This document shows, piece after piece, positions 27,282 to 39,368 of a stretch of DNA of 64,000 bases. Every line of letters begins with the position of its first letter. Positions within the stretch are counted from its first letter, which is position 1. The translations under genes were made by a program, and so were the position numbers. The notes below the pieces were generated by a model. The model was given only the letters and a program-made list of their open reading frames with translations. It had not been told where the DNA came from and did not search any database. Source of the stretch: Chryseobacterium sp. MYb264 (GTDB lineage Bacteria; Bacteroidota; Bacteroidia; Flavobacteriales; Weeksellaceae); NCBI RefSeq assembly GCF_035974275.1, contig NZ_CP142422.1, forward strand, positions 1,488,001 to 1,552,000. The letters run 5' to 3'.

Positions 27282-29441
27282 CTAGTCCAGTTTTGTTCCT
27301 TGTTTTTCCCACATCATTTTATAGATAGAATCTCTTGAGATTAACTCTTGGTGTCCACCCTTTTCTATAATCTGCCCTTCTTTCATTACCAAAATGGTAT
27401 CAGAATTAATAATAGTACTCAAACGGTGCGCAATAACAATCATTGTTTTTCCTTGACTTCTAAATTCCTGTAATGTATTTTGAATAACCATCTCTGATTC
27501 TGTATCCAATGAAGAAGTGGCTTCATCTAAAATTAATATTTCAGGGTTTTTGTATAAGGCTCTGGCAATGGCAATCCTTTGTTTTTGACCTCCAGAAAGC
27601 AAAGCTCCGTTTTCTCCTAGGTACGTTTGAAATCCATTAGGTAATTTTTCTACGAAACGTAATATTCCCAAATTTTTAGTAATATTTAGAATTCTCTGTA
27701 TATCGGGAAAATCTTCACCTAATGCTATATTTTCGATCACATTTCCGGAAAACAAATCTATCTGCTGCGGAACTACAGATACTAAATTTCTTAAAGAATG
27801 ATTAGAAATATAGTGGCTGTCATAATCTCCAATCATAATTCTTCCTGTTTTAAGTGGGTATAAATTTTGAACCAAGGAAGCTAATGTACTTTTGCCACTA
27901 CCACTTTCTCCAACAATAGCAGTTGTCTCTCCCTTTTTTATAATACAATTAAAATTCGTAAATACTTCGGTTCTGCTACCATAACTAAAACTTACTTCTT
28001 TAAACTGAATGTCTCCAATATTTTCTTTTATTAATTCTAATTTATCTGCACTCTCCTCACGTTCCAGATCCATGATTTCGAAAAGACGGTCGGCAGCTAT
28101 TAGTGCATTCTGAATAGTTTTATTCATCCCGATTAATTGTGATACAGGATTGGTGAAATATCCAATCAAAGCATAGAAAGACAATAATTCTCCAGGGGTT
28201 ATGATTCTATCAATCACATATCCTGAGCCCGCCCAAAGTAGTACAATCGTAAAAATTCTGGATAAAAATTCGGATGAATTGCCTGAAAATAAGGCATTCT
28301 TTACAGAAGCGTAAATTGTTTTTAACAATTTGGAAAAAGCATTGTCTGTTTTATTATTAGCAAAAGTTTCTACGCCAAATTGTTTAATCGTTTTTACGGA
28401 AGTGATGGATTCCACCAAATGAGATTCTAGTTCTGCACTTTGCTCCATCAATTGTCTTTCTACTTTTTTATTCAATTTATTGGTAATCCAATATACTAAA
28501 AAATAGAAAGGAATTACTAATGCTGTAATTAATGCCAACTTCCAGTAATAGGTAAACATTAACGCAAATGAAAAAATAATGATAAATAGATTTACAAAAA
28601 TCTGTATGGAAACATCATTTATAAAGGTTCTTATTTTGACAGCATCATTTACTCTTGAGATAATTTCTCCGACTTTCATGGTATCAAAAAAACGTTGAGG
28701 AAGTTTTAGTAAATGTTTATAATAACCGAGAATAAGATGCTTATCCATTTTTTGCCCCGTTTGTAAAACTAAAACACTTTTCATGGCTCCAATAAAAATT
28801 TGAAACAACAGTATGACTATCATTCCAACTGAAAGTAAGTTGAGCAACCGCTTATTACCGTCTATCAGAACATAATCTGTTATTTTTTCTATATAAATTG
28901 AGGTTGATAATCCCAAAATAGTATACACCAAAGCACCTAACAAGGCTTGAATTAAAATACTCTTATGTGGCCGAACCAAGTTCCAGAATCTTTTATAAAG
29001 GCTTGTTTTTTCATTTCTTTGTTCAAAATACTCATTAGGTTCTAATAGGATTAGAACCCCTGTCCATATTTTTGAAAACTCTTCTGTTTTGTATTCCTCC
29101 AGCTTCCCTCTGGCGGGATCCATTACTGTAATTTTATCCTTTGTGACTTTATAAATGACCACGTAATGATGCATTTGTCCGTTAACAATAATATGAGCTA
29201 TAGCAGGAAGTGGAAGCTCTGGTAGAGCATCAATACCACCTTTTACTCCTTTTGCATTGAAGCCCATTTGTTCTAAACCTTGTATTAAACCTAAAACATT
29301 GGTTCCTCTTGTATCGGTATGGCAAATTTGTCTGATTTTTGCAATTGGCATTTTTAATCCATAATGGATCGCAACAGAGGCAAGACAAGCAGCACCACAA
29401 TCTTTAATGTCATGCTGTTTAATCAATATATCCTTTTTCAT
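27282..29441 (-). CDS. Peptidase-containing ABC exporter (PCAT, C39 family)
   Basis: The 719-residue product is a fused leader peptidase, transmembrane and ATPase transporter. The C39 domain (about 1-140) keeps catalytic Cys15 in 'HDIKDCGAACL', Gln9, His92 in 'HHYVVIY' and Asp108 in 'VMDPARG'. Six helices span about 155-430. The ATPase has Walker A 'GESGSGKST' (about 512), signature 'LLSGGQKQR' (about 615) and Walker B 'ILILDEATSSLD'. Such exporters cut leaders after a double glycine and pass the peptide outward. With the adaptor gene 59 bases upstream and GG-leader peptide genes at 30904-31209 on the same strand, it is their exporter; the GG-leader RiPP precursor at 33398 may also use it. 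Confidence 0.96.
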   Translation of the reverse strand: MKKDILIKQHDIKDCGAACLASVAIHYGLKMPIAKIRQICHTDTRGTNVLGLIQGLEQMGFNAKGVKGGIDALPELPLPAIAHIIVNGQMHHYVVIYKVTKDKITVMDPARGKLEEYKTEEFSKIWTGVLILLEPNEYFEQRNEKTSLYKRFWNLVRPHKSILIQALLGALVYTILGLSTSIYIEKITDYVLIDGNKRLLNLLSVGMIVILLFQIFIGAMKSVLVLQTGQKMDKHLILGYYKHLLKLPQRFFDTMKVGEIISRVNDAVKIRTFINDVSIQIFVNLFIIIFSFALMFTYYWKLALITALVIPFYFLVYWITNKLNKKVERQLMEQSAELESHLVESITSVKTIKQFGVETFANNKTDNAFSKLLKTIYASVKNALFSGNSSEFLSRIFTIVLLWAGSGYVIDRIITPGELLSFYALIGYFTNPVSQLIGMNKTIQNALIAADRLFEIMDLEREESADKLELIKENIGDIQFKEVSFSYGSRTEVFTNFNCIIKKGETTAIVGESGSGKSTLASLVQNLYPLKTGRIMIGDYDSHYISNHSLRNLVSVVPQQIDLFSGNVIENIALGEDFPDIQRILNITKNLGILRFVEKLPNGFQTYLGENGALLSGGQKQRIAIARALYKNPEILILDEATSSLDTESEMVIQNTLQEFRSQGKTMIVIAHRLSTIINSDTILVMKEGQIIEKGGHQELISRDSIYKMMWEKQGTKLD

Positions 29442-29500: not shown

Positions 29501-30583
29501 TTATTTTAATTTGGGGTTGAACCAATCGTCAACACGGTCAAATAACAATTGCCATAATGTGCGGTCAAGCAAATGAAAACGTGCTGTAAAAGTCATTCCC
29601 TTATCTATTTCTCCTTTATACCCGTTTTTCAATTGCAAATAGTTTTTATCCATTTTACAAAGAACTCTAAAGGAAGCTTCTCCAGATTGTTCATTAATTT
29701 TAATATTCTGATCGATCTCAGAAACTTTGCCTTTCAATAATCCCCATTGATTATAATTATAGGTATCGATTTGGTATTTTACATTTTGTCCGACATGGAT
29801 AAAACCAATGTCTTTAGGGGAAACTAAACATTCAGCAATTAATGAAACTTCCGGAGAAATTTCTCCTATATTTTGTCCCTGTGTTAAAAAGTTATTTTTC
29901 TGTATTCCGGAAAAATTTACAAGTCTCCCTGAAATGGGAGCTGTTATGATATAATTTTTTTGTTCTTGATTAATACGCTGAACTTCTGAACCTAAAGAGC
30001 GGATTTGTCTTTCTACCTCTCTTTTTTGAGTTTGCCACTGAGCAATTTGTTGCTCTCTTACTCCGGCAATTTGGTTTTTAAGCCCTTGAAGATTGTAGTA
30101 AAATTTATCATATTCTGCTTTAGGGATTACTCCCTGATTAAAAAGTGTTGCGGCTCTATCAAAGTCTTTTTGCGCTAAAGACAATTGTGTTTGTACTTGT
30201 GCAATTCTTTCCTGCATGGCGGACAGTTCTCGTTGATATTGTCCGGTTTGTAATCCCGAAACTTGTGCTCTCGTTAATTTACTGAGATCCTGCAACTGTG
30301 CTGAATAGTCTGAACTTTGACTGTTTTGAAGATTTTTCTGTGTATCCAGCTGTTCTGCTGTGACAATAAGCAAGGTATCTCCTTGTCTGATTTCCTGATT
30401 ATTCTTTTCTAGTTTGTTATAAATAACTCTTCCTGAAACGATAGCAGAAATTTTTGTATTCTCCTGGACAGATCGTATAACGCCTCTTGAAGAAGAAGAA
30501 ATAGGAACTTTTGTGATCGGTAAAATGCATAGGAAAACAACTACAAGAACTAATATTCCTATATAAATTGATTTTTTGAACAT
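29501..30583 (-). CDS. HlyD-family adaptor of the peptide exporter
   Basis: The 360-residue product has one N-terminal transmembrane helix (about 5-25), a lipoyl half-domain ('ISAIVSGRVIYNKLEKNNQEIRQG' region, about 47-75), a long coiled coil (about 80-215, Gln-rich) and a C-terminal beta-barrel ('FIHVGQNVKYQIDTYNY'). This is the membrane-fusion partner that joins the PCAT to an outer-membrane channel. No dedicated TolC gene is in this operon; the TolC at 25672 or another copy could serve. It lies between the small peptide genes and the PCAT gene on one strand. Confidence 0.94.
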   Translation of the reverse strand: MFKKSIYIGILVLVVVFLCILPITKVPISSSSRGVIRSVQENTKISAIVSGRVIYNKLEKNNQEIRQGDTLLIVTAEQLDTQKNLQNSQSSDYSAQLQDLSKLTRAQVSGLQTGQYQRELSAMQERIAQVQTQLSLAQKDFDRAATLFNQGVIPKAEYDKFYYNLQGLKNQIAGVREQQIAQWQTQKREVERQIRSLGSEVQRINQEQKNYIITAPISGRLVNFSGIQKNNFLTQGQNIGEISPEVSLIAECLVSPKDIGFIHVGQNVKYQIDTYNYNQWGLLKGKVSEIDQNIKINEQSGEASFRVLCKMDKNYLQLKNGYKGEIDKGMTFTARFHLLDRTLWQLLFDRVDDWFNPKLK

Positions 30584-30903: not shown

Positions 30904-31035
30904 TTACTTTTTTGAATGTTCATATTGTGTCTCTTTATATCCTACATATATGCCTAGCATTAATGCAAAAACTAAGAGACCACCACCGTTTATATCTTTC
31001 TGCTCTTGTAAAGTTAATTCTTTTATATTTTTCAT
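30904..31035 (-). CDS. Double-glycine leader peptide, putative bacteriocin component B
   Basis: The 43-residue product has a leader 'MKNIKELTLQEQKDINGGG' with the hydrophobic spacing (L7, L9, I15) and terminal glycines recognised by C39 peptidases. The remaining 24 residues are a hydrophobic stretch with GxxxG ('GIYVG') and a charged tail 'YKETQYEHSKK'. It lies 12 bases after the next upstream peptide gene and on the same strand as the PCAT and adaptor genes, which supports secretion through them. Paired GxxxG peptides are characteristic of class IIb bacteriocins, so I infer a two-peptide pore former. Confidence 0.75.
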   Translation of the reverse strand: MKNIKELTLQEQKDINGGGLLVFALMLGIYVGYKETQYEHSKK

Positions 31036-31047
31036 AATTAAAAAAAA

Positions 31048-31209
31048 TTAATGAGTTAGGTAATAAGCGGCTTTTCCAATTTCTTTTCCACCATAATAAA
31101 CGGCTGCTGTCACTGTAGCTATGCCCATGATTAATGGTAAAATACCTCCCTCTGTTTCTTGTAATTCCTTATTGTTCAGTTCTTGAACATTTAATTTTTT
31201 TAGATTCAT
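31048..31209 (-). CDS. Double-glycine leader peptide, putative bacteriocin component A
   Basis: The 53-residue product has a leader 'LNVQELNNKELQETEGG' (glycines 21-22) of the lactobin/cerein 7B kind, then a 31-residue hydrophobic core beginning 'ILPLIMGIATVTAAVYY' and holding GxxxG ('GKEIG'). It is the first gene of the minus-strand run of three peptides, adaptor and PCAT. Two histidine- or lysine-ended cores with GxxxG suggest helices that pair in the target membrane. Expected to be cleaved and exported by the PCAT. Confidence 0.8.
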   Translation of the reverse strand: MNLKKLNVQELNNKELQETEGGILPLIMGIATVTAAVYYGGKEIGKAAYYLTH

Positions 31210-31315
31210 ATCTATATTATTTTAAAAATTAATATTTTTTTTGCCATACAATCCCTGGCATGGGTTTTTGCTGATCAGCGAGCGTTATATTTATATTTTC
31301 TGCACTGTACACATA

Positions 31316-31352
31316 CAAAAAATAAAACATTTGTGTTTTTATCTGAAGCAAA
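31316..31352 (-). promoter_or_regulatory. Tentative promoter of the peptide/exporter operon
   Basis: On the minus strand TTTG (31352-31349), 24 bases, then TATTTTTTG (31324-31316) approximates the Bacteroidetes consensus with one extra base in each interval. It would give a 5' leader of about 100 bases containing a small TGCCA...TGGCA hairpin. The gap 31210-31479 has no other feature I can support. Confidence 0.35.
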
Positions 31353-31479
31353 CTTAAATCAGAAATTGACAGAAAAAAAACAATACTTAGACGGATTTAT
31401 AAATTCAGAATATATATTTATAAAACCTTTCAAGATTAAAATTCTGAAATTCAATTATTTAGAATAAACAAACAGTAAA

Positions 31480-33198
31480 CTATAGTAAATTTGATTTTTC
31501 GATTTCCTTAATATAAATAGAGGGTGTAGTTTCGGTTTTTTTCTTAAATGCAATTGAAAATGCTTGTACATTATTATAACCAATCTCCTCTGCAATAGCT
31601 GGCAATTTATAAGATCGAAATTTTTTATCTTGAACAAGTCGTTCCAAAACGTAGTCAATCCGTAAATCATTAAGATAAGAAGTGAAATTTTTACCTTTAT
31701 GATTATTAATAGTCTCGGATAAATAGGCCGTATTTGTCTTTATATTTTTTGCCAAACTAGCTAAAGTAATACCATTTTTTAAAAAGAGTTGTTTATTTTC
31801 AAAAGTATCTAGTCCATTCAAAATAAACTTAGTAACATCATCCGGAACCGTTTTGGTTGTTTTGTTTTCTATTTCCTCGACAGGCACAGGTATTTGAGAC
31901 TCAATAATTTCTTTATTGATGGTAGATTCAATATTTCTTTTTTCAATACGTTGAATTAGTTCTTGAGCTATTTTTCGGTGTTTGCTTGCTGTTTTCTTCG
32001 CTTTATAATAAAGAGTTAAAATTAATAGAAGGACTAAAATTAAGACACCAATAGAAATATATAATATTCTTTTTCTATTTTTTAAATCTCTGATAATATT
32101 TTCTTTTTCTTGTAGAAGATTGGGAGTATCATACTTTTTAGGCAATTCTGTAGAAAGATATTGAAACTGGTCATCAAGTTTTTTATCTACTTTTAGAAAA
32201 CGATCGATATAATACAATTGTTTTTCTTTATCATTTTTTTCTTTGTAATAATCTATAAGATAAGTGTATACTTCGCGGAGCTCGGGAAAGGTGATATTAG
32301 TTTTTTGTACATTAAAATCTAATTTAATATAGGCTTCAGCCGCTTTTTGGGAGTTCTTTAAGCCTTCATAAGATTTACCAATATTTAATAAACAATAATC
32401 TGCATTTTGATCACTGATTTTGGAATAGTAAGCATTAGCTATAGAAAAATTTTTAATTGCGGATTTATAGTTTTTTAACTTTAAATTATAAGCTCCTGTG
32501 TAATATATATATTGGTTGAAAACATATTTATTTTTATCTGCCAATTGAGATTTTTTCCCTTCATTTATAAGAATATTTGCAGAATCAATTTTATTTAGTT
32601 CAATATAACAGTAAATTAGACTAATCCGCATCTGATTATGTTGCGATTCATCAGTAAAACTTCTTTCATTATACAGATAATATCTGAATGTTTTAGCTGC
32701 TTCTGCATTTTTACCTATATAACTATTTATATATGCTATATTCATATTTGCATATGCTGTAAGCTTTTTGTCTTTTTGCAGCTTTGCATATTGTAATCCT
32801 AAAATATAATTATCCAAAGCAAGCTTTAAGTTATCATATTTGTAATAAAGATTACCTTTCATTAAATATGTTTGAGAAGGATATATTGTTCCTTTTAAAT
32901 TTCTTGTAACTACAGTTGTACTATCTAAGTATTTTAGTGCATTAGAAAAATCTTCATTAAAATGAGTAAGAACATAGCCGTCAGCTATTGCTAGATTATT
33001 GTTTTCTTTTTTAGCCTTTTGCAGATAATATTGAGCTATAACCTTAGCATTATCGACTTTAATATTATCATTGTAATTATAAAATTTGTTTTTTAGCTCT
33101 TTATAATTAAATGCTCTTAAACTATCAACTTGTTTATTTTGTGAATAAAATAAATTGCTAAATAATATGATTAAAAGTAAGTATATAGATTTCATCAT
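31480..33198 (-). CDS. Membrane-anchored TPR-AraC family transcriptional regulator
   Basis: The 572-residue product has a signal peptide ending 'NLFYSQ', a TPR-like helical repeat domain (about 55-350), a transmembrane helix (about 377-396, 'ILYISIGVLILVLLLILTLYY'-type), a linker and a C-terminal AraC DNA-binding domain (about 475-570) with 'LPAIAEEIGYNNVQAFSIAF' as the second helix-turn-helix. Such proteins sense a periplasmic signal and act on DNA at the membrane. It lies between the bacteriocin export operon (same strand) and the divergent RiPP operon, so it is the obvious candidate regulator for both. A start one codon later (33195) is equally possible. Confidence 0.92.
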   Translation of the reverse strand: MMKSIYLLLIILFSNLFYSQNKQVDSLRAFNYKELKNKFYNYNDNIKVDNAKVIAQYYLQKAKKENNNLAIADGYVLTHFNEDFSNALKYLDSTTVVTRNLKGTIYPSQTYLMKGNLYYKYDNLKLALDNYILGLQYAKLQKDKKLTAYANMNIAYINSYIGKNAEAAKTFRYYLYNERSFTDESQHNQMRISLIYCYIELNKIDSANILINEGKKSQLADKNKYVFNQYIYYTGAYNLKLKNYKSAIKNFSIANAYYSKISDQNADYCLLNIGKSYEGLKNSQKAAEAYIKLDFNVQKTNITFPELREVYTYLIDYYKEKNDKEKQLYYIDRFLKVDKKLDDQFQYLSTELPKKYDTPNLLQEKENIIRDLKNRKRILYISIGVLILVLLLILTLYYKAKKTASKHRKIAQELIQRIEKRNIESTINKEIIESQIPVPVEEIENKTTKTVPDDVTKFILNGLDTFENKQLFLKNGITLASLAKNIKTNTAYLSETINNHKGKNFTSYLNDLRIDYVLERLVQDKKFRSYKLPAIAEEIGYNNVQAFSIAFKKKTETTPSIYIKEIEKSNLL

Positions 33199-33221: not shown

Positions 33222-33397
33222 GGGTTTTCATAATTAAAAAAGATGTGAAACAAGAATAAACAAAAAAAACATTAACATCTACATTTTCAAAACATTACAT
33301 CATTTTCCATATATACATTTATAAATCTAAAAATATAATTCTATTTAGTTTTATAAAATTTACTTTCTTTGTAAGATAAATTTTAATATTATTAATG

Positions 33398-33571
33398 ATG
33401 AAAAAACAAAATCAAAGTGAAAAAAAATTGTCGTTAAAAAAAGTTCAATTAATGAAGCTTAATGCTATGAAAACGATTACTGGAGGTGGCGGGAATCAAG
33501 CGGGAATTAATATGAACGGAAATGATGACCCAAATCTTCCTACTCCTTTTCAAACAGCTAGTAGTAAGTAA
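33398..33571 (+). CDS. RiPP precursor with class I lanthipeptide-type leader, no cysteine
   Basis: The 57-residue product (58 if the adjacent ATG at 33395 is used) has a leader with 'KKLSLKKVQLMKLNAMKTIT', the KLxLKKxxxxxLN signature of Bacteroidetes lanthipeptide leaders, followed by four glycines. The core after the glycines, starting 'NQAGINMNGNDDPNLP' and ending 'TPFQTASSK', has Thr/Ser for dehydration and three prolines, but no Cys, so lanthionine rings cannot form. Twelve bases downstream begins a prolyl oligopeptidase gene, then the two LanB halves. The GG site fits cleavage by the C39 exporter at 27282. Confidence 0.85.
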   Translation: MKKQNQSEKKLSLKKVQLMKLNAMKTITGGGGNQAGINMNGNDDPNLPTPFQTASSK

Positions 33572-33583
33572 TTCTTAAGACTA

Positions 33584-35761
33584 ATGAAAATAAAAATATT
33601 TCTTATTATCAGCTTCTCATCATTTTTTACGAGTGCTCAAAAAACAAAATTACCTCAATCAAAGCCAACTATTGATGAGTATTTTGGAACTAAAATCATT
33701 GATGATTACAGAAATTTGGAAAATTTAGATGACATCCAAAACATAGATTGGATGAAATCTCAGACAGCTTATACCAATTCTGTTTTAGATTTAATTCCTA
33801 AAAGGAATTACTATGTAGAAAAAAGACTAGAACTTGATACAAGGCAAGGCTATTCTGTATCAGATTTGAAGATAACAGATAATAATAAATATTTTTATTT
33901 AAAGAAAAAAGGAAATGAAAAAATAGCAAAATTATATTATCGAGAAGGATTTCAAGGAAAAGAAGAATTACTTTATAATCCTATTAACTACAAAAATTCA
34001 GAAACAAATCATGATTTTATTATCAATTATATAAGTCCAAGCTTAGATGGTAATAAGATTGCTGTTTCAATAGCTGAAAAAGGTGTAGAGCTATCCGATC
34101 TGATTATTATCGATGTTAAAAAAAAACAAATCTATCCTGAAGTCCTTACCAATACTGCGCCTGCTAGTTTTGATGGAATAAAATGGTTAGATGATAGTAG
34201 CGGTTTTTTTTATGTAAATTTTTCTACAATTGATTCTAAATCTAAAGACTTCTATAAAAATACTCAGACTGTTGTTTATAAAATAGGAACTGATCCAAAA
34301 AAAATAATTGATGTTTTTTCTGCCAAAAACAATCCTGATTTAAATATTGCTGAGGATCAATTTCCTATGATTTTAAATTCTGATATTGATGATCAGTTTT
34401 ATAAAGGAATGTTGTTAGATTTCCAATCATACCGAAAAACATTCATAATCAATAAAAAAGATTTATTAGCTGGGAAAAAAAATTGGAAATTATTTTCTGA
34501 ATCAAGTGATAAAGCTAAGAGTTTAGATTTTTTGAATGATCAAGTCATTTTTTTATCATACTATAATTCATATTTAAATAAATTATGTAGAACAAATATT
34601 ACTAATCCAAATTTTAAAAATGCTGAAGTATTAGTTCCAGAGAAAATAGAAGAAATAATTAAAAGCTATAGAATAACAAAAGATGGTATTTATTACACCA
34701 CTACTAAAAACGGTGTAGAAGCTAAATTGTATCTATATAAAGATGGAAAGGATAATGTAATTAAACTCCCTTTTCCATCAGGAAATATTGAATTACAGAG
34801 TAAAGGGAAAAATTATTCAGATATTTGGATTACCTGTTCTGGGTGGGCAAATGATGAGCAACGTTTTAAATATGATGTAAAAAAGGATTTTTTTATTCCA
34901 GAAAACATGGCTCCTGTGGCAGAGTATCCTGAATTTAAAGATATTACTGTTGAAGAAATAAGTGTAAAAGCAAGGGATGGACAAGAAATTCCAGTTTCTT
35001 TAATTTATAATAAGAACATTAAAAAAGACGGCAAAAACATGGTGTTGATTGACAGCTATGGTTCTTATGGAATTTCCTCTAATCCTTTCTTTGCTAAAAC
35101 TTACTTGTTATGGGCTAATCAAGGTGGAATGGTCGCTGTAGCTCACGTAAGAGGGGGAGGTGAAAAAGGAGAGCAATGGCGCTTAGGAGGATATAAAGAA
35201 ACAAAGCCTAATACTTGGAGAGATTTGATAGACTGTACAGAATATTTAATAAACGAGAAATATACCTCAAGAGATAAGGTCGCTATTTGGGGAGCCAGTG
35301 CAGGAGGAATTACAGTAGGCAGGGCTATGACAGAAAGACCAGATCTTTTTAAAGCAGTCATAGCTGAGGTTGGTTCATTAAACATGCTTAGAGATTATAC
35401 AAAACCTAATTCTCAGCCTAAAGAGTTTGGAAGCATAAAAGACCCAAAGGAATTTAAAGCTTTATTGGAAATGGATGCTTATCATCACATTAAAAAAGGA
35501 GTAAAGTATCCAGCGACTTTCATCACAGGAGGGATAAATGACCAAAGAGTTATTGTTTGGGAGCCTGTAAAATTTGCAGCTAAATTAATGACTAATGATG
35601 CATCTTCTAATCCTGTATTATTAAAAATAGATTTTGAAGGTGGGCATGCTGGTAATGTACCTGTTGCTCAACGATATGCTAATTTAGGCGATATGTTTGC
35701 ATTTGCATTATGGCAATTAGGACACCCTGATTACCAGCCAAAAGAAAATACAAAAAAATAA
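33584..35761 (+). CDS. Secreted prolyl oligopeptidase (S9A family) of the RiPP operon
   Basis: The 725-residue product has a signal peptide (MKIKIFLIISFSSFFTSAQ), an N-terminal seven-bladed propeller (about 75-430) and a C-terminal alpha/beta-hydrolase domain with Ser572 in 'IWGASAGGITVG', Asp653 in 'GGINDQRV' and His688 in 'FEGGHAGNV'. Prolyl oligopeptidases cut after proline in short peptides. It follows the precursor gene by 12 bases and its stop overlaps the LanB start by one base (TAATG), so it is translationally coupled into the RiPP operon. I infer a periplasmic maturation or trimming protease; the precursor core has prolines at suitable places. Turnover of the peptide as self-protection is an alternative. 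Confidence 0.93.
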   Translation: MKIKIFLIISFSSFFTSAQKTKLPQSKPTIDEYFGTKIIDDYRNLENLDDIQNIDWMKSQTAYTNSVLDLIPKRNYYVEKRLELDTRQGYSVSDLKITDNNKYFYLKKKGNEKIAKLYYREGFQGKEELLYNPINYKNSETNHDFIINYISPSLDGNKIAVSIAEKGVELSDLIIIDVKKKQIYPEVLTNTAPASFDGIKWLDDSSGFFYVNFSTIDSKSKDFYKNTQTVVYKIGTDPKKIIDVFSAKNNPDLNIAEDQFPMILNSDIDDQFYKGMLLDFQSYRKTFIINKKDLLAGKKNWKLFSESSDKAKSLDFLNDQVIFLSYYNSYLNKLCRTNITNPNFKNAEVLVPEKIEEIIKSYRITKDGIYYTTTKNGVEAKLYLYKDGKDNVIKLPFPSGNIELQSKGKNYSDIWITCSGWANDEQRFKYDVKKDFFIPENMAPVAEYPEFKDITVEEISVKARDGQEIPVSLIYNKNIKKDGKNMVLIDSYGSYGISSNPFFAKTYLLWANQGGMVAVAHVRGGGEKGEQWRLGGYKETKPNTWRDLIDCTEYLINEKYTSRDKVAIWGASAGGITVGRAMTERPDLFKAVIAEVGSLNMLRDYTKPNSQPKEFGSIKDPKEFKALLEMDAYHHIKKGVKYPATFITGGINDQRVIVWEPVKFAAKLMTNDASSNPVLLKIDFEGGHAGNVPVAQRYANLGDMFAFALWQLGHPDYQPKENTKK

Positions 35762-37971
35762 TGTCTCGTTTTCCTTATCAATTTTTTGAGGAGTATGTGG
35801 TACGTACTCCTCTATTTTCATATAAAAATTTCCAAAATCAGTTTAATGGATATGTTGTTTCTGATGATGAATTAAAGAAAATTTGCAGAGAGCCTATTTT
35901 TTTGGAAGCTATTTATTTGTCCTCACCATCTTTATACGTGGAGATTAATAAGTGGCTTGGTTCAGAAAAAGATTTTTCTACAAAAGAATTTCAAAAATTA
36001 AAGCATACTATTTTAAAATATTATAGCCGAATAAGTACAAGATCTACTCCATTCGGATTGTTTTCAGCGGTTAGGTTAGGGAAATTCAGTTTAGCGATGT
36101 CTAACATTCTTAATAATGAAAATAACCAACGCTCAATCGATCATCTATTACGAGATACCAAATTGGATATGTCTTTTCTTGTTTCATTGGCACAACATTT
36201 TACGCAGCAAATAGAAATTAGAAGTAAGCTTTTATTTTTCCCGAATAACAGCATCCACCAAGTAGGAAATAGAATTCATTATATAGAATATAAGTACACA
36301 AGAGGAAAAAGAGACTATATTATTTCTTTAGCTCCCCTTTCTGAAGAATTACAGCAGATATTAAATTTTTCAAAGAAAGGCAAAACGCTGCAAGAAATTG
36401 GTGATATTTTGATTAATGATAATATTACGAAAGAAGAAGCAATAGAATTTGTAGAAGAGCTTATCGAAAATCAAGTGCTTGTAAGCGAATTAGAACCCAA
36501 TGTTTCAGGAGATGATTTCTTAGATTCCATTATTACTATTTTAGAGAAAAGGAAAATAAAAGCTGAAGCCGAAATTTTAATTTCGATAAAAAATAAACTG
36601 AATGAGTTAGACCAAAACATTCATAATTCAATTTTTAAGTATATTGAAATTGAAGAATTAATAAAATCTTTTTCAATAGAATATGAATCTCAATACCTTT
36701 TTCAAACTGATCTCTACAATAAAACATTATTTTCTTTATCATCTGAATGGAAAAGAAAATTAAAAAAAGGAATAAGTTTTTTGAACAAACTCAACCTTAA
36801 TCAAAGAGAAAGTGAATTTTCGAAATTTAAAAAAGTTTTTAGCGAAAGATTTGAAACACAAGAGTTGCCCTTATTATATGTTTTGGATAATGAAGTAGGA
36901 ATCGGATACAAACAAAATATTCATTCAAAAGGCATTCATCCTTACCTAGAAGATTTAGTAATTCCCTATTCGCAAAAGAAACCAAACAAGAATATTGAAC
37001 TTACTCCTATTTCAGTAAAGCTTAATGAGAAATTACAGGAAGCTTTACTGGATAATCAACAGACTATTGAACTTACTGATGAAGACTTTAAAGATTTTGA
37101 AGAAAATTGGAATGATTTACCAGATACAATCTCCGTAATGACAGAAATAATTTCTGAAAATAATCAGGAAAAATTATTCTTAAATACTTTTACGACAGGT
37201 AGTGCTGCTAATCTTTTGGGGCGATTTTGCTCTGAAAAATCTGAAATCCGTCATTTAACCAAAGCTATTGCTCAAAAAGAACAGGAGCTTCATCCTGATG
37301 AGATTTTAGCAGAAATCATTCACTTACCGGAAGCTAGAATTGGCAATATAATCAGAAGACCCACTTTAAGACAATATGAAATTCCTTATTTAGCTCAATC
37401 CCTTTTACCAGAAGAAAATCAAATACCTTTAGAAGACTTATATATTTCGTTAAAAAATGACGAAATTATTTTACGCTCGAAAAAATTGAACAAAGTAATA
37501 AAGCCATATCATACAAACGCACATAATTATTATACCAACACCCTTCCTGTATATCATTTCTTAGCAGATTTATATTCGCAGAATATGAGATCAGGACTTT
37601 CTTTTAATTGGGGAGGATTAGAGCATGTGTATTCATTTCTGCCAAGAATAGAATATAATAATATCATTCTTTCAAAGGCTAATTGGAAAATTACAGAAAA
37701 AGAATTTTCTTCTTTGGATTTGACAAACTCACACAAAGCAGATTTTCTTTTGAAATTAAAAAATTGGAGAAATAAAAGAAAAATTCCTGCATGGGTTCAA
37801 TGGGCAAAGTTTGATCATACGCTCACAATAAACTTGGAGAATTATGATATGGCAATGCTTTTTATTCAAACTGTAAGAAAAGAAAAGACGATCAATATGG
37901 AAGAATTTTTATATAACGAAAATGATGACTTTAAAAGAGAATTTATTTTTCCCATGTATAAAGTAAAATAA
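35761..37971 (+). CDS. Lantibiotic dehydratase, N-terminal (glutamylation) protein of a split LanB
   Basis: The 736-residue cytoplasmic protein has the Lant_dehydr_N domain: 'KYYSRISTRSTPFGLFS' near residues 87-102 and, toward the C-terminus, 'RRPTLRQYEIPYLAQS', 'IPLEDLYISLKNDEIILRSK' and 'NYYTNTLPVYHFLADL', the usual LanB block order. Full-length LanB is about 1000 residues; here the elimination domain is a separate gene 4-7 bases downstream, as in pinensin-type and thiopeptide clusters. It would transfer glutamate from glutamyl-tRNA to Ser/Thr of the precursor. Its start overlaps the peptidase stop. Confidence 0.95.
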   Translation: MSRFPYQFFEEYVVRTPLFSYKNFQNQFNGYVVSDDELKKICREPIFLEAIYLSSPSLYVEINKWLGSEKDFSTKEFQKLKHTILKYYSRISTRSTPFGLFSAVRLGKFSLAMSNILNNENNQRSIDHLLRDTKLDMSFLVSLAQHFTQQIEIRSKLLFFPNNSIHQVGNRIHYIEYKYTRGKRDYIISLAPLSEELQQILNFSKKGKTLQEIGDILINDNITKEEAIEFVEELIENQVLVSELEPNVSGDDFLDSIITILEKRKIKAEAEILISIKNKLNELDQNIHNSIFKYIEIEELIKSFSIEYESQYLFQTDLYNKTLFSLSSEWKRKLKKGISFLNKLNLNQRESEFSKFKKVFSERFETQELPLLYVLDNEVGIGYKQNIHSKGIHPYLEDLVIPYSQKKPNKNIELTPISVKLNEKLQEALLDNQQTIELTDEDFKDFEENWNDLPDTISVMTEIISENNQEKLFLNTFTTGSAANLLGRFCSEKSEIRHLTKAIAQKEQELHPDEILAEIIHLPEARIGNIIRRPTLRQYEIPYLAQSLLPEENQIPLEDLYISLKNDEIILRSKKLNKVIKPYHTNAHNYYTNTLPVYHFLADLYSQNMRSGLSFNWGGLEHVYSFLPRIEYNNIILSKANWKITEKEFSSLDLTNSHKADFLLKLKNWRNKRKIPAWVQWAKFDHTLTINLENYDMAMLFIQTVRKEKTINMEEFLYNENDDFKREFIFPMYKVK

Positions 37972-37975
37972 AACA

Positions 37976-38818
37976 GTGATGAAAAGAAAGTTTATTCCAG
38001 GAAGTGAATGCTTGTATGTAAAAATTTACACCGGTATTAAAACAGCAGATCTTGTTTTGGAAGAAGCTGTACAACCGATCGTAGAATCTTTTCAGGCTAA
38101 TAAGCACATTTCAAAATGGTTTTTCATTCGATATAATGATCCTAAACCTCATCTAAGAATAAGATTTTTATTAAATCATAGCAACCATTATAATAAAATC
38201 CTTCATCAACTTCATCATGTTTTATCTGAATATTTAGAGAGCGGAGAAATCTCACAAATTACATTTGATACTTACACTAGAGAAATAGAACGTTATGGAG
38301 AAAATACGATGGAAGAAGCTGAATCTTTATTTAATAAAAACAGCGAATTTACTCTACAGTGCCTGCATTACGATGATGAAGAGAAAATCATCATTTCTCT
38401 TTTTTATGTGGATGAAATTTTAAACATTATTGGTCTTTCTACTCAGGAAAAATTAAACTGGATTAGAGATTTTAACAACGCATTTAAACAGGAATTTAAT
38501 GCGGATAAAAAGCTTAATTCCCAATTAGATAAAAAATACCGAGCATTTAAGCCAAAATACTTAGATTTTATTCAGTCCGAAGAATTTTTGGAGGAAAGAA
38601 ATATTATTATTTCGAATATTAAAGAAAGTAATTTAATATTACAAAACATATTATACCATTATGCTAACCAATCCCTAGGAATGTCTTTACAAAGCTTTTT
38701 CCAAAGCATATTTCATATGAATATCAACAGACTTTTTATTTCTAATCAGCGATTGTTTGAAATGATAATCTATGATTATTTGCTAAGATATTTCAAAGCA
38801 AAATCCTTTTCTAAATAA
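37976..38818 (+). CDS. Thiopeptide-type bacteriocin biosynthesis protein (LanB elimination domain)
   Basis: The 280-residue protein (279 if the second Met, at 37979, is the start) matches the SpaB C-terminal domain: 'CLYVKIYTG' at the start, 'WFFIRYNDPKPHLRIRFLL' at about 48-66, then 'YTREIERYG' at about 100-110 and a helical end. This domain removes glutamate from glutamylated Ser/Thr to give dehydroalanine or dehydrobutyrine. It completes the split LanB; a bidirectional terminator follows, so the operon ends here without LanC, protease or transporter genes. Confidence 0.94.
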   Translation: MMKRKFIPGSECLYVKIYTGIKTADLVLEEAVQPIVESFQANKHISKWFFIRYNDPKPHLRIRFLLNHSNHYNKILHQLHHVLSEYLESGEISQITFDTYTREIERYGENTMEEAESLFNKNSEFTLQCLHYDDEEKIIISLFYVDEILNIIGLSTQEKLNWIRDFNNAFKQEFNADKKLNSQLDKKYRAFKPKYLDFIQSEEFLEERNIIISNIKESNLILQNILYHYANQSLGMSLQSFFQSIFHMNINRLFISNQRLFEMIIYDYLLRYFKAKSFSK

Positions 38819-38826
38819 TCAAAAAT

Positions 38827-38856
38827 AAAGTGCAGACAACTATTTATCTGCACTTT
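38827..38856. terminator. Bidirectional terminator between the RiPP operon and ecotin
   Basis: A perfect 10-bp stem (38827-38836 with 38847-38856) has T runs on both strands. It closes both converging operons. Confidence 0.85.
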
Positions 38857-38882: not shown

Positions 38883-39368
38883 TTATTTTTGAACCGCTTT
38901 CTTCATCGCATCCGGACGAAGCACTCTGTAACGCACTTCCATATCTTTCGGAATATAGAAAACCAATGGCAACTTGCTGTTGTATCTCACCGTTTCAGGC
39001 TTTAAGTTGACGAATTGTTTGGTCAGTTTCTGATCCGGACAGCCCATCAACGTACCTCCTACTTCACCTTTAGATTCAACATCATAGTAAGTGTAGCCCC
39101 ATCCTTGCAGGTCCTGAGTTTTTACTTCGCCCATCATAAAGTGTTTGTTGCAGTCTAGCATTTTTTCTGCACCTACAAAAAACTCAACTTTTAAGTCGTT
39201 TTCGTTTTTAGCAATAGGCAACTGAACGTATACTTGTTTATAACCTTCTTTCGCTTTCGGGAACATTTCAATCTCCAGTTTTGCGAACTTTTCTGCTTTC
39301 TTCTGAGCAAAAGCGTTCACTCCAATCATCATTATTAAACCTGTCATCAGTGTCTTTGAAAATTTCAT
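38883..39368 (-). CDS. eco: Ecotin, broad-range serine protease inhibitor
   Basis: The 161-residue product has a signal peptide (MKFSKTLMTGLIMMIGVNAFAQ) and matches ecotin along its length: 'FPKAKEGYKQVYVQLP', 'LDCNKHFMMGEV', 'GWGYTYYDVES', the reactive loop 'GGTLMGCPDQK', 'VRYNSKLPLVFYIPKDMEVRYRVL'. Cys73 and Cys110 form the loop disulfide. Counting back from Cys110 puts Leu107 at the P1 position, where E. coli has Met. The periplasmic dimer inhibits trypsin, chymotrypsin and elastase-type proteases. It is the last gene of the operon with the two macroglobulins (42-base gap). Confidence 0.95.
   Translation of the reverse strand: MKFSKTLMTGLIMMIGVNAFAQKKAEKFAKLEIEMFPKAKEGYKQVYVQLPIAKNENDLKVEFFVGAEKMLDCNKHFMMGEVKTQDLQGWGYTYYDVESKGEVGGTLMGCPDQKLTKQFVNLKPETVRYNSKLPLVFYIPKDMEVRYRVLRPDAMKKAVQK

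Follow-up and report, generated by a model that had tools for sequence, protein, structure and literature searches.

A LanC-less split LanB operon of Chryseobacterium and its TPR-AraC regulator: a candidate dehydrated peptide signal

What does a class I lanthipeptide dehydratase do where there is neither a cyclase nor a cysteine to close a ring? The question is raised by a 64,000-nucleotide stretch of the genome of Chryseobacterium sp. MYb264 (contig NZ_CP142422.1, positions 1,488,001 to 1,552,000; hereafter the window), in which a short precursor peptide is followed by a secreted S9A-family serine peptidase, a LanB glutamylation protein and a separate LanB elimination protein (LanB_C). By the marks of a class I lanthipeptide, the LanB dehydratase is present, and a linked LanC and a cysteine (Cys) in the core peptide are absent. 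On comparative evidence, we lean towards the reading that the locus encodes a pheromone, a dehydrated peptide, along with the peptidase and the receptor for it, a neighbouring regulator (REG), and that it would control bacteriocin output. A first-pass annotation of the same DNA had presented the operon as defining or extending a linear, Cys-free peptide class and missed the TPR-AraC regulator, the palindromes around it and an adjacent output operon, which together point to a signal and not just to a novel natural product.

The LanB clade, its precursors and its peptidases

The gene order, common strand and tight spacing first described for the operon were confirmed: 12 nt separate precursor and S9A, S9A and LanB overlap by 1 nt at TAATG, and LanB_C follows LanB after 4 nt (GTG start) or 7 nt (ATG start). 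So were the protein families, the Pfam search assigning Peptidase_S9_N and Peptidase_S9 to the peptidase, Lant_dehydr_N to LanB (E 3e-133) and Lant_dehydr_C to LanB_C (E 8e-63), which also matches TIGR03891. The precursor has no Cys in 58 residues, and its leader scores 16 bits against the NF038153 'class I lanthipeptide' model, below the 22-bit cut-off. As had been stated, there is no LanC in the operon: none was found in the window by profile search or among the operon genes, and the only other LanB match in the genome is a pair about 100 kb away with its own LanC and Cys-rich precursors. A precursor profile run over the genome recovered the window peptide (E 1.9e-26) and two weak matches (3.1e-4 and 2.3e-3), both beside that separate LanC, and no Cys-bearing precursor for the window enzymes. 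A hidden substrate of this kind was accordingly rejected, the only extra leader-like peptides being Cys-rich and adjacent to their own LanB and LanC.

About 100 related loci have the same set of genes, so the operon is not a chance arrangement. A LanB search of the window's family, the Weeksellaceae, matched at least 143 of 320 genomes at E 1e-30; 95 loci were fetched at about 49% identity or above and nine were added later, for a total of 104, leaving aside clade-level matches that were fragments or lay on short contigs (G066, G062, G152, G160, G117:C3 and similar). Together with the window these form a single LanB clade of 105 tree rows with a local support of 100 (FastTree), which bears out the earlier proposal of a real LanC-less family and stands beside LanC-bearing LanBs on a tree where several outgroup rows are long-branched. 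In 395 genomes of the order, clade-level matches are confined to the Weeksellaceae, and matches of about 37–42% occur in another family; a separate related-locus search returned 3 loci.

LanB without a cyclase is the rule in this clade. LanC lies within about 6 kb of 3 of the 104 loci, each time beside its own Cys-rich precursors; the profile matched L129, whose LanC is among the profile seeds, and tblastn added L116 and L120. Seven of ten outgroup loci have LanC (L136, L137, L138, L140, L175–L177), and none was found at L139, L178 and L179, the neighbours of L139 not having been worked out. A LanC match exists somewhere in 84 of 173 genomes of the genus, that of the window included, and 39 of the 88 same-genus clade loci sit in genomes without one; LanC acting in trans was rejected as a general answer on this count, and for the window on account of its Cys-free core.

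The leader profile detected precursors in 86 of the 95 loci, two of the nine misses (L052, L125) probably having truncated starts. Once the Cys-rich peptides of the separate LanC clusters beside L116, L120 and L129 are set aside, 45 of the 86 have no Cys, 41 have exactly one and none has two or more; among the nine later loci, seven have a precursor without Cys and two one with a single Cys. The proposed check for relatives that combine Cys-bearing precursors with a linked LanC thus gave no multi-Cys case, and LanB pairs with S9A do recur as predicted. 'Cys-free', however, does not define the family: Cys is optional, with a single residue in 41 of 86 loci and 18 changes of state along the LanB tree. 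Two LanC-less loci of another family of the order (L178, L179) combine a split LanB with REG and an S8 subtilase, and their precursors carry two and one Cys, possibly marking a wider family.

The catalytic residues of the LanB pair are kept. Equivalents of NisB R83, R87 and R464, numbered by counting from the LanB alignment, are present in 95 of 95 LanB proteins and that of T89 in 89, their functional roles being presumably those of NisB, and the arginine, glutamate-arginine and histidine motifs of LanB_C are conserved in 92–93 of 93. This conservation argues for dehydration of Ser and Thr by the split pair.

The peptidase is more variable. Of the 95 loci, 68 have an S9A gene whose end is within 100 nt of the LanB start, 19 have a CocE/NonD (S15-like) hydrolase there and eight have neither, and the nine later loci have CocE in seven and S9A in two; the type switched 16 times on the LanB tree, and the subtilase takes the place of S9A at L178 and L179. 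An N-terminal hydrophobic stretch is found in all 67 S9A and all 19 CocE proteins versus 2 of 95 LanB and 11 of 94 LanB_C. The S9A catalytic triad is intact in 67 of 67, and the position aligned to the S1 Trp, which we take to be the proline-stacking W595 of pig prolyl oligopeptidase, is Q, S, N, T, G or D in all 67 and never Trp. Since this Trp is missing and Pro is absent from 13 of 87 cores, cleavage after proline is doubtful, and with it the label 'prolyl' first given to an enzyme that the S15/CocE type can replace. From the Lys at position 613 in 51 of 67 proteins, one might guess at a preference for an acidic P1 residue. At L051, L058 and L095, two or more S9A genes stand between the precursor gene and LanB.

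The regulator, its palindromes and exchange of the cassette

REG combines a TPR domain, a transmembrane helix and an AraC-type helix-turn-helix (HTH) and adjoins 94 of the 104 clade loci. A hydrophobic N-terminus in 81 of 83 REG proteins and the helix in 83 of 83 predict a periplasmic TPR sensor linked across the membrane to a cytoplasmic AraC domain, and the TPR domain has a fold match to the RRNPP peptide receptors.

A common putative operator is present at the signal and output promoters, in the relatives as in the window. Of the 86 loci, 71 have the palindromic pattern ATTKATMAAT in the 220 nt ahead of the precursor, typically about 83 nt away (background 0.029 per 220 nt), and 71 of 76 hits fall between -70 and -100. 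Where REG is divergent, the exact palindrome lies no more than 150 nt past the REG stop in 33 of 53 loci, as compared with 2/94 and 2/294 in controls, and is found twice in 20, spaced by 21–22 bp in 18 of these. Where REG is on the same strand, it lies upstream of REG in 27 of 31 loci (0.108 expected per 600 nt), with a spacing of 31 bp in 12 of 13 pairs. The pattern was discarded as a marker of a genome-wide regulon because it is unspecific, with 14 occurrences versus 16 in the control.

These palindromes recur ahead of an adjacent operon, frequently in tandem, and the first gene of that operon frequently encodes another bacteriocin or ribosomally synthesised and post-translationally modified peptide (RiPP). 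Among the 52 loci with an open reading frame (ORF) soon after the palindrome, the ORF starts 180–204 nt on in 21; by eye, 28 have short RiPP-like candidates and at least 14 a secreted or larger protein. In a scan of 34 candidate output peptides (32 from the 28 loci, two from the window) the matches included TIGR04139 (9), a Chryseobacterium bacteriocin-like leader (9), TIGR04149 (4), class IIb bacteriocins (4) and, with two each, leaders of class I lanthipeptides, a share that is not a rate because the peptides were hand-picked. At L116 and L120 the Cys-rich lanthipeptide precursor begins 204 nt past the palindrome behind REG, as a putative output. The promoter and leader preceding outputs of different RiPP classes have a mean column identity of 70% in 18 hand-picked sequences (17 of 26, and the window), and two more copies are present in the genome (C1:284590-284699 and C1:4204024-4204138). 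The leader was rejected as a known RNA, with no Rfam family matched (best E 0.85, below gathering), and its covariation is weak (term -0.36). A C39 peptidase match was obtained in 34 of 34 genomes tested and lies within 16 kb of 26 of their 40 LanB loci, versus about 1.5% expected.

Relative to LanB, the regulator, the precursor and the peptidase are exchanged together as one cassette. Over the 61 loci, that of the window among them, in which every part is present and the peptidase is an S9A, pairwise distances correlate at 0.94 between S9A and the REG sensor, 0.43 between S9A and LanB and 0.71 between LanB and LanB_C; the precursor correlates with REG more than with LanB by 0.10 (-0.02 to 0.21), and the correlation declines along S9A toward its LanB end. 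Fourteen hand-picked locus pairs were inspected for homology breaks. Three of them (L129/L130, L078/L091 and L079/L086) become homologous 9 to 26 nt ahead of LanB, and another three (L042/L045, L043/L045 and L053/L063) do so about 942 nt ahead of it, within S9A; L053/L063 has a conserved far flank as well. No break is seen in L096/L099, L055/L064 and L123/L127.

The core peptide and the sensor vary together. In one REG subfamily (52 loci) core and sensor correlate better than core and LanB by 0.35 (0.19 to 0.53) and better than core and HTH by 0.26 (0.12 to 0.41); in the same loci the advantage of the S9A catalytic part over LanB in correlation with the sensor was not significant (0.07, -0.12 to 0.27). 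Partial Mantel tests of core against sensor given LanB, made with pairwise core alignments, gave 0.57 (n=56) and 0.35 (n=34), values that none of 500 permutations reached in either group; in the n=34 group, in which REG has its HTH end adjacent to the precursor, the advantage of sensor over HTH was not significant (0.07, -0.07 to 0.25). In the window, the REG sensor is closest to those of L083, L065, L055, L057 and L064, which have PTP[FL]QT[AP]SGK in common in their cores, while the HTH and LanB are closest to L042/L043.

Readings of the locus and comparison with known systems

If the locus is a signalling system, the leader would be recognised by the LanB pair, which would glutamylate and then eliminate Ser and Thr to give dehydroalanine and dehydrobutyrine; because the window precursor has no Cys and its operon no LanC, no lanthionine would form. 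The leader would be cut at its double-glycine (GG) site during export, the likely agent being the neighbouring C39 exporter or one like it, and the peptide trimmed outside the cytoplasm by the secreted S9A or, in relatives, presumably by the S15/CocE-type hydrolase or S8 subtilase. The mature dehydrated peptide may then bind REG at its periplasmic TPR domain, and the AraC domain of REG, in the cytoplasm, would act on the palindromes at the precursor promoter, as feedback, and on the tandem palindromes before the adjacent bacteriocin or RiPP and exporter operon. Differences in signal specificity between strains would follow from the joint exchange of regulator, precursor and peptidase, the LanB pair being inherited more independently. 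Somewhat more doubtfully, such loci could constitute an undescribed signal class: linear dehydroamino-acid pheromones of Weeksellaceae, with interchangeable secreted peptidases, a periplasmic TPR-TM-AraC sensor (TM, transmembrane), swappable pherotype cassettes and one conserved output promoter before many bacteriocin and RiPP operons. In that case a peptide of the single-Cys branch would bear a free thiol or one self-formed ring.

The modified peptide might instead be the effector itself, an antimicrobial or surface-active linear dehydropeptide, with REG answering another cue and happening to control two RiPP operons. LanB products are usually effectors, and the loci often adjoin other antimicrobial-type peptides and exporters; yet the core co-varies with the REG sensor beyond what LanB explains, the cassette of regulator, precursor and peptidase swaps against LanB, and the operon has no immunity or exporter gene among its members, so that we regard this as unlikely, if the strongest of the alternatives. 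Decidedly less probable is a degenerate class I lanthipeptide with thioether rings formed in the one-Cys loci, spontaneously or by an unlinked LanC. The single Cys at nearly half of the loci and the LanC matches elsewhere in many genomes, this one too, speak for it; against it stand the Cys-free precursors and the lack of a LanC match in the genomes of 18 one-Cys and of 18 no-Cys loci of the genus; for the window peptide a ring is excluded by its core.

Secreted peptidases of three peptidase or hydrolase families and a periplasmic TPR sensor could also serve the scavenging of nutrient peptides, the RiPP-like gene being incidental, but a split LanB pair and a precursor accompany REG and peptidase in most loci and the palindromes stand at the precursor promoter and at RiPP-type outputs, which makes this improbable. 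Hardly any weight falls on a LanB pair that leaves another modification, such as stable glutamyl esters: stand-alone Lant_dehydr_N proteins can perform other tRNA-dependent chemistry, as in the PEARL enzymes, but here glutamylation and elimination proteins are both present with conserved catalytic motifs.

The closest known systems each have some features in common with these loci. Bacteroidota class I lanthipeptides, namely the pinensins with a split LanB and the Chryseobacterium OV715 lanthipeptide, share the LanB chemistry, LxLxK leader and GG site (PMC7268733, PMC9993889); the characterised Chryseobacterium product is made with LanC, three dehydroamino acids reacting with Cys (PMC9993889). 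The present loci differ in having no linked LanC, 0 or 1 Cys, and a secreted peptidase and TPR-AraC regulator within the unit. Goadsporin is not known to contain lanthionine. Like the thiopeptides, it relies on a split LanB-type dehydratase acting on Ser and Thr (PMC10676384), whereas no YcaO or azoles were found in the window operon, which has the secreted peptidase and regulator instead. S9A-family peptidases are likewise linked to RiPPs as the LanPB prolyl oligopeptidases of class III lanthipeptides (PMC7268733). Unlike these, the window-type S9A has a signal peptide and no S1 Trp, and the dehydratase is of the class I type.

On the signalling side, the RRNPP systems (Rap-Phr, NprR-NprX, PlcR-PapR, AimR) resemble REG in the TPR fold of their peptide receptors, by fold match, peptide binding by REG being a prediction; their signals are matured by peptidases, as that of REG would be. 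RRNPP receptors act in the cytoplasm on unmodified peptides (PMC12998947), whereas the REG TPR domain is predicted to be periplasmic and linked through the membrane to an AraC HTH, and its peptide to be dehydrated. The comQXP locus is an exchangeable pherotype locus, in which signal and receptor genes are swapped together. Streptococcus suis has transferable competence pherotypes (PMC4072589); the present loci differ from both in their LanB-type modification, their occurrence in Bacteroidota and their output, adjacent RiPP operons. Quorum-sensing peptides control bacteriocins in streptococci (PMC5295010), and TPR genes and pheromone binding are mentioned together for RiPP clusters of Bacteroidales (PMC10352776), an order in which that study found no LanB. 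Among the matches listed from the open-licence PMC literature, nothing concerned LanB without LanC in Chryseobacterium or TPR-AraC pheromone receptors, which is not proof of absence from print. A survey of more than 100,000 genomes began with LANC_like and dropped ORFs without a core Cys (PMC7268733); mining anchored on LanC in this way would miss the clade twice, by its starting point and by discarding such precursors. Should the pheromone reading be true, it would mean peptide quorum sensing in Bacteroidota, a new use of LanB chemistry and a handle to switch on silent RiPP clusters in a RiPP-rich genus.

Features of the window and further copies

Coordinates are collected in Table 1. The exporter probably serves GG peptides and possibly the precursor too. 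The terminator claimed behind the operon stands as a terminator-like hairpin, with a score from the scan for the - strand alone (1 found versus 0.1 expected in shuffles); the T-rich tail on the + strand was read by eye.

Table 1. Features of the signal and output operons in the window (positions in the window)
Feature	Position	Strand	Remarks
C39-peptidase ABC exporter	27282..29441	-	PF03412 match at C1:1517031-1517426
Membrane fusion protein, HlyD type	29501..30583	-	named from translation by eye, no family search
Output peptide 2, GG-leader	30904..31035	-	TIGR03949 weak, 16.2 bits vs 21.5 cut-off
Output peptide 1, GG-leader, class IIb bacteriocin-like	31048..31209	-	TIGR03949, above cut-off
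Conserved promoter/leader of output operon	31229..31358	-	TAAGTTTG box, then conserved leader
Tandem putative operators	31395..31425		ATTTATAAAT at 31395-31404 and imperfect ATTTATAAAA at 31416-31425, 21 bp apart; second read by eye
REG, putative pheromone receptor	31480..33198	-	signal-peptide-like N-terminus, TPR domain, transmembrane helix (376-402), AraC-type HTH
Palindrome, putative operator of precursor operon	33317..33326		ATTTATAAAT, 78 nt upstream of precursor ATG
Precursor peptide	33395..33571	+	58 aa, 57 aa from second ATG; KKLSLKK leader, GG site, Cys-free core with PTPFQTAS
Secreted S9A-family serine peptidase	33584..35761	+	catalytic Ser/Asp/His present; S1 Trp position is Gln611
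LanB glutamylation protein (Lant_dehydr_N)	35761..37971	+	equivalents of NisB R83, R87, T89, R464 present
LanB elimination protein LanB_C (Lant_dehydr_C / TIGR03891)	37976 (GTG) or 37979 (ATG)..38818	+	Arg, Glu-Arg, His motifs present
Terminator-like hairpin	38827..38856		scored on - strand; T after it on + strand seen by eye

Directly behind the operon, at 38883-39368 (-), an ecotin-type serine peptidase inhibitor neighbours the secreted serine peptidase. Elsewhere in the same genome, a 1026-residue frame at C1:1669110 (L002) has a partial LanC-like match and is perhaps a LanM-type synthetase. Many loci of the set L155–L174 adjoin islands with a C39 exporter and HlyD protein and, by eye, ATP-grasp- or maturase-like genes; among the few island members searched in Pfam, L093 has an MvdD-type ATP-grasp. 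The MYb264 genome also holds a remnant second copy of the system at C1:4196000-4207300 (L180, L197), with REG pieces, a CocE gene, a Lant_dehydr_C fragment, a nearby C39 exporter, palindromes and the leader. The leader at C1:284590 (L196) has two AAATTCATGAATTT-type palindromes ahead of it and two short peptides, of 64 and 56 residues, behind it, an arrangement that we term an orphan output, a signal operon not having been looked for there.

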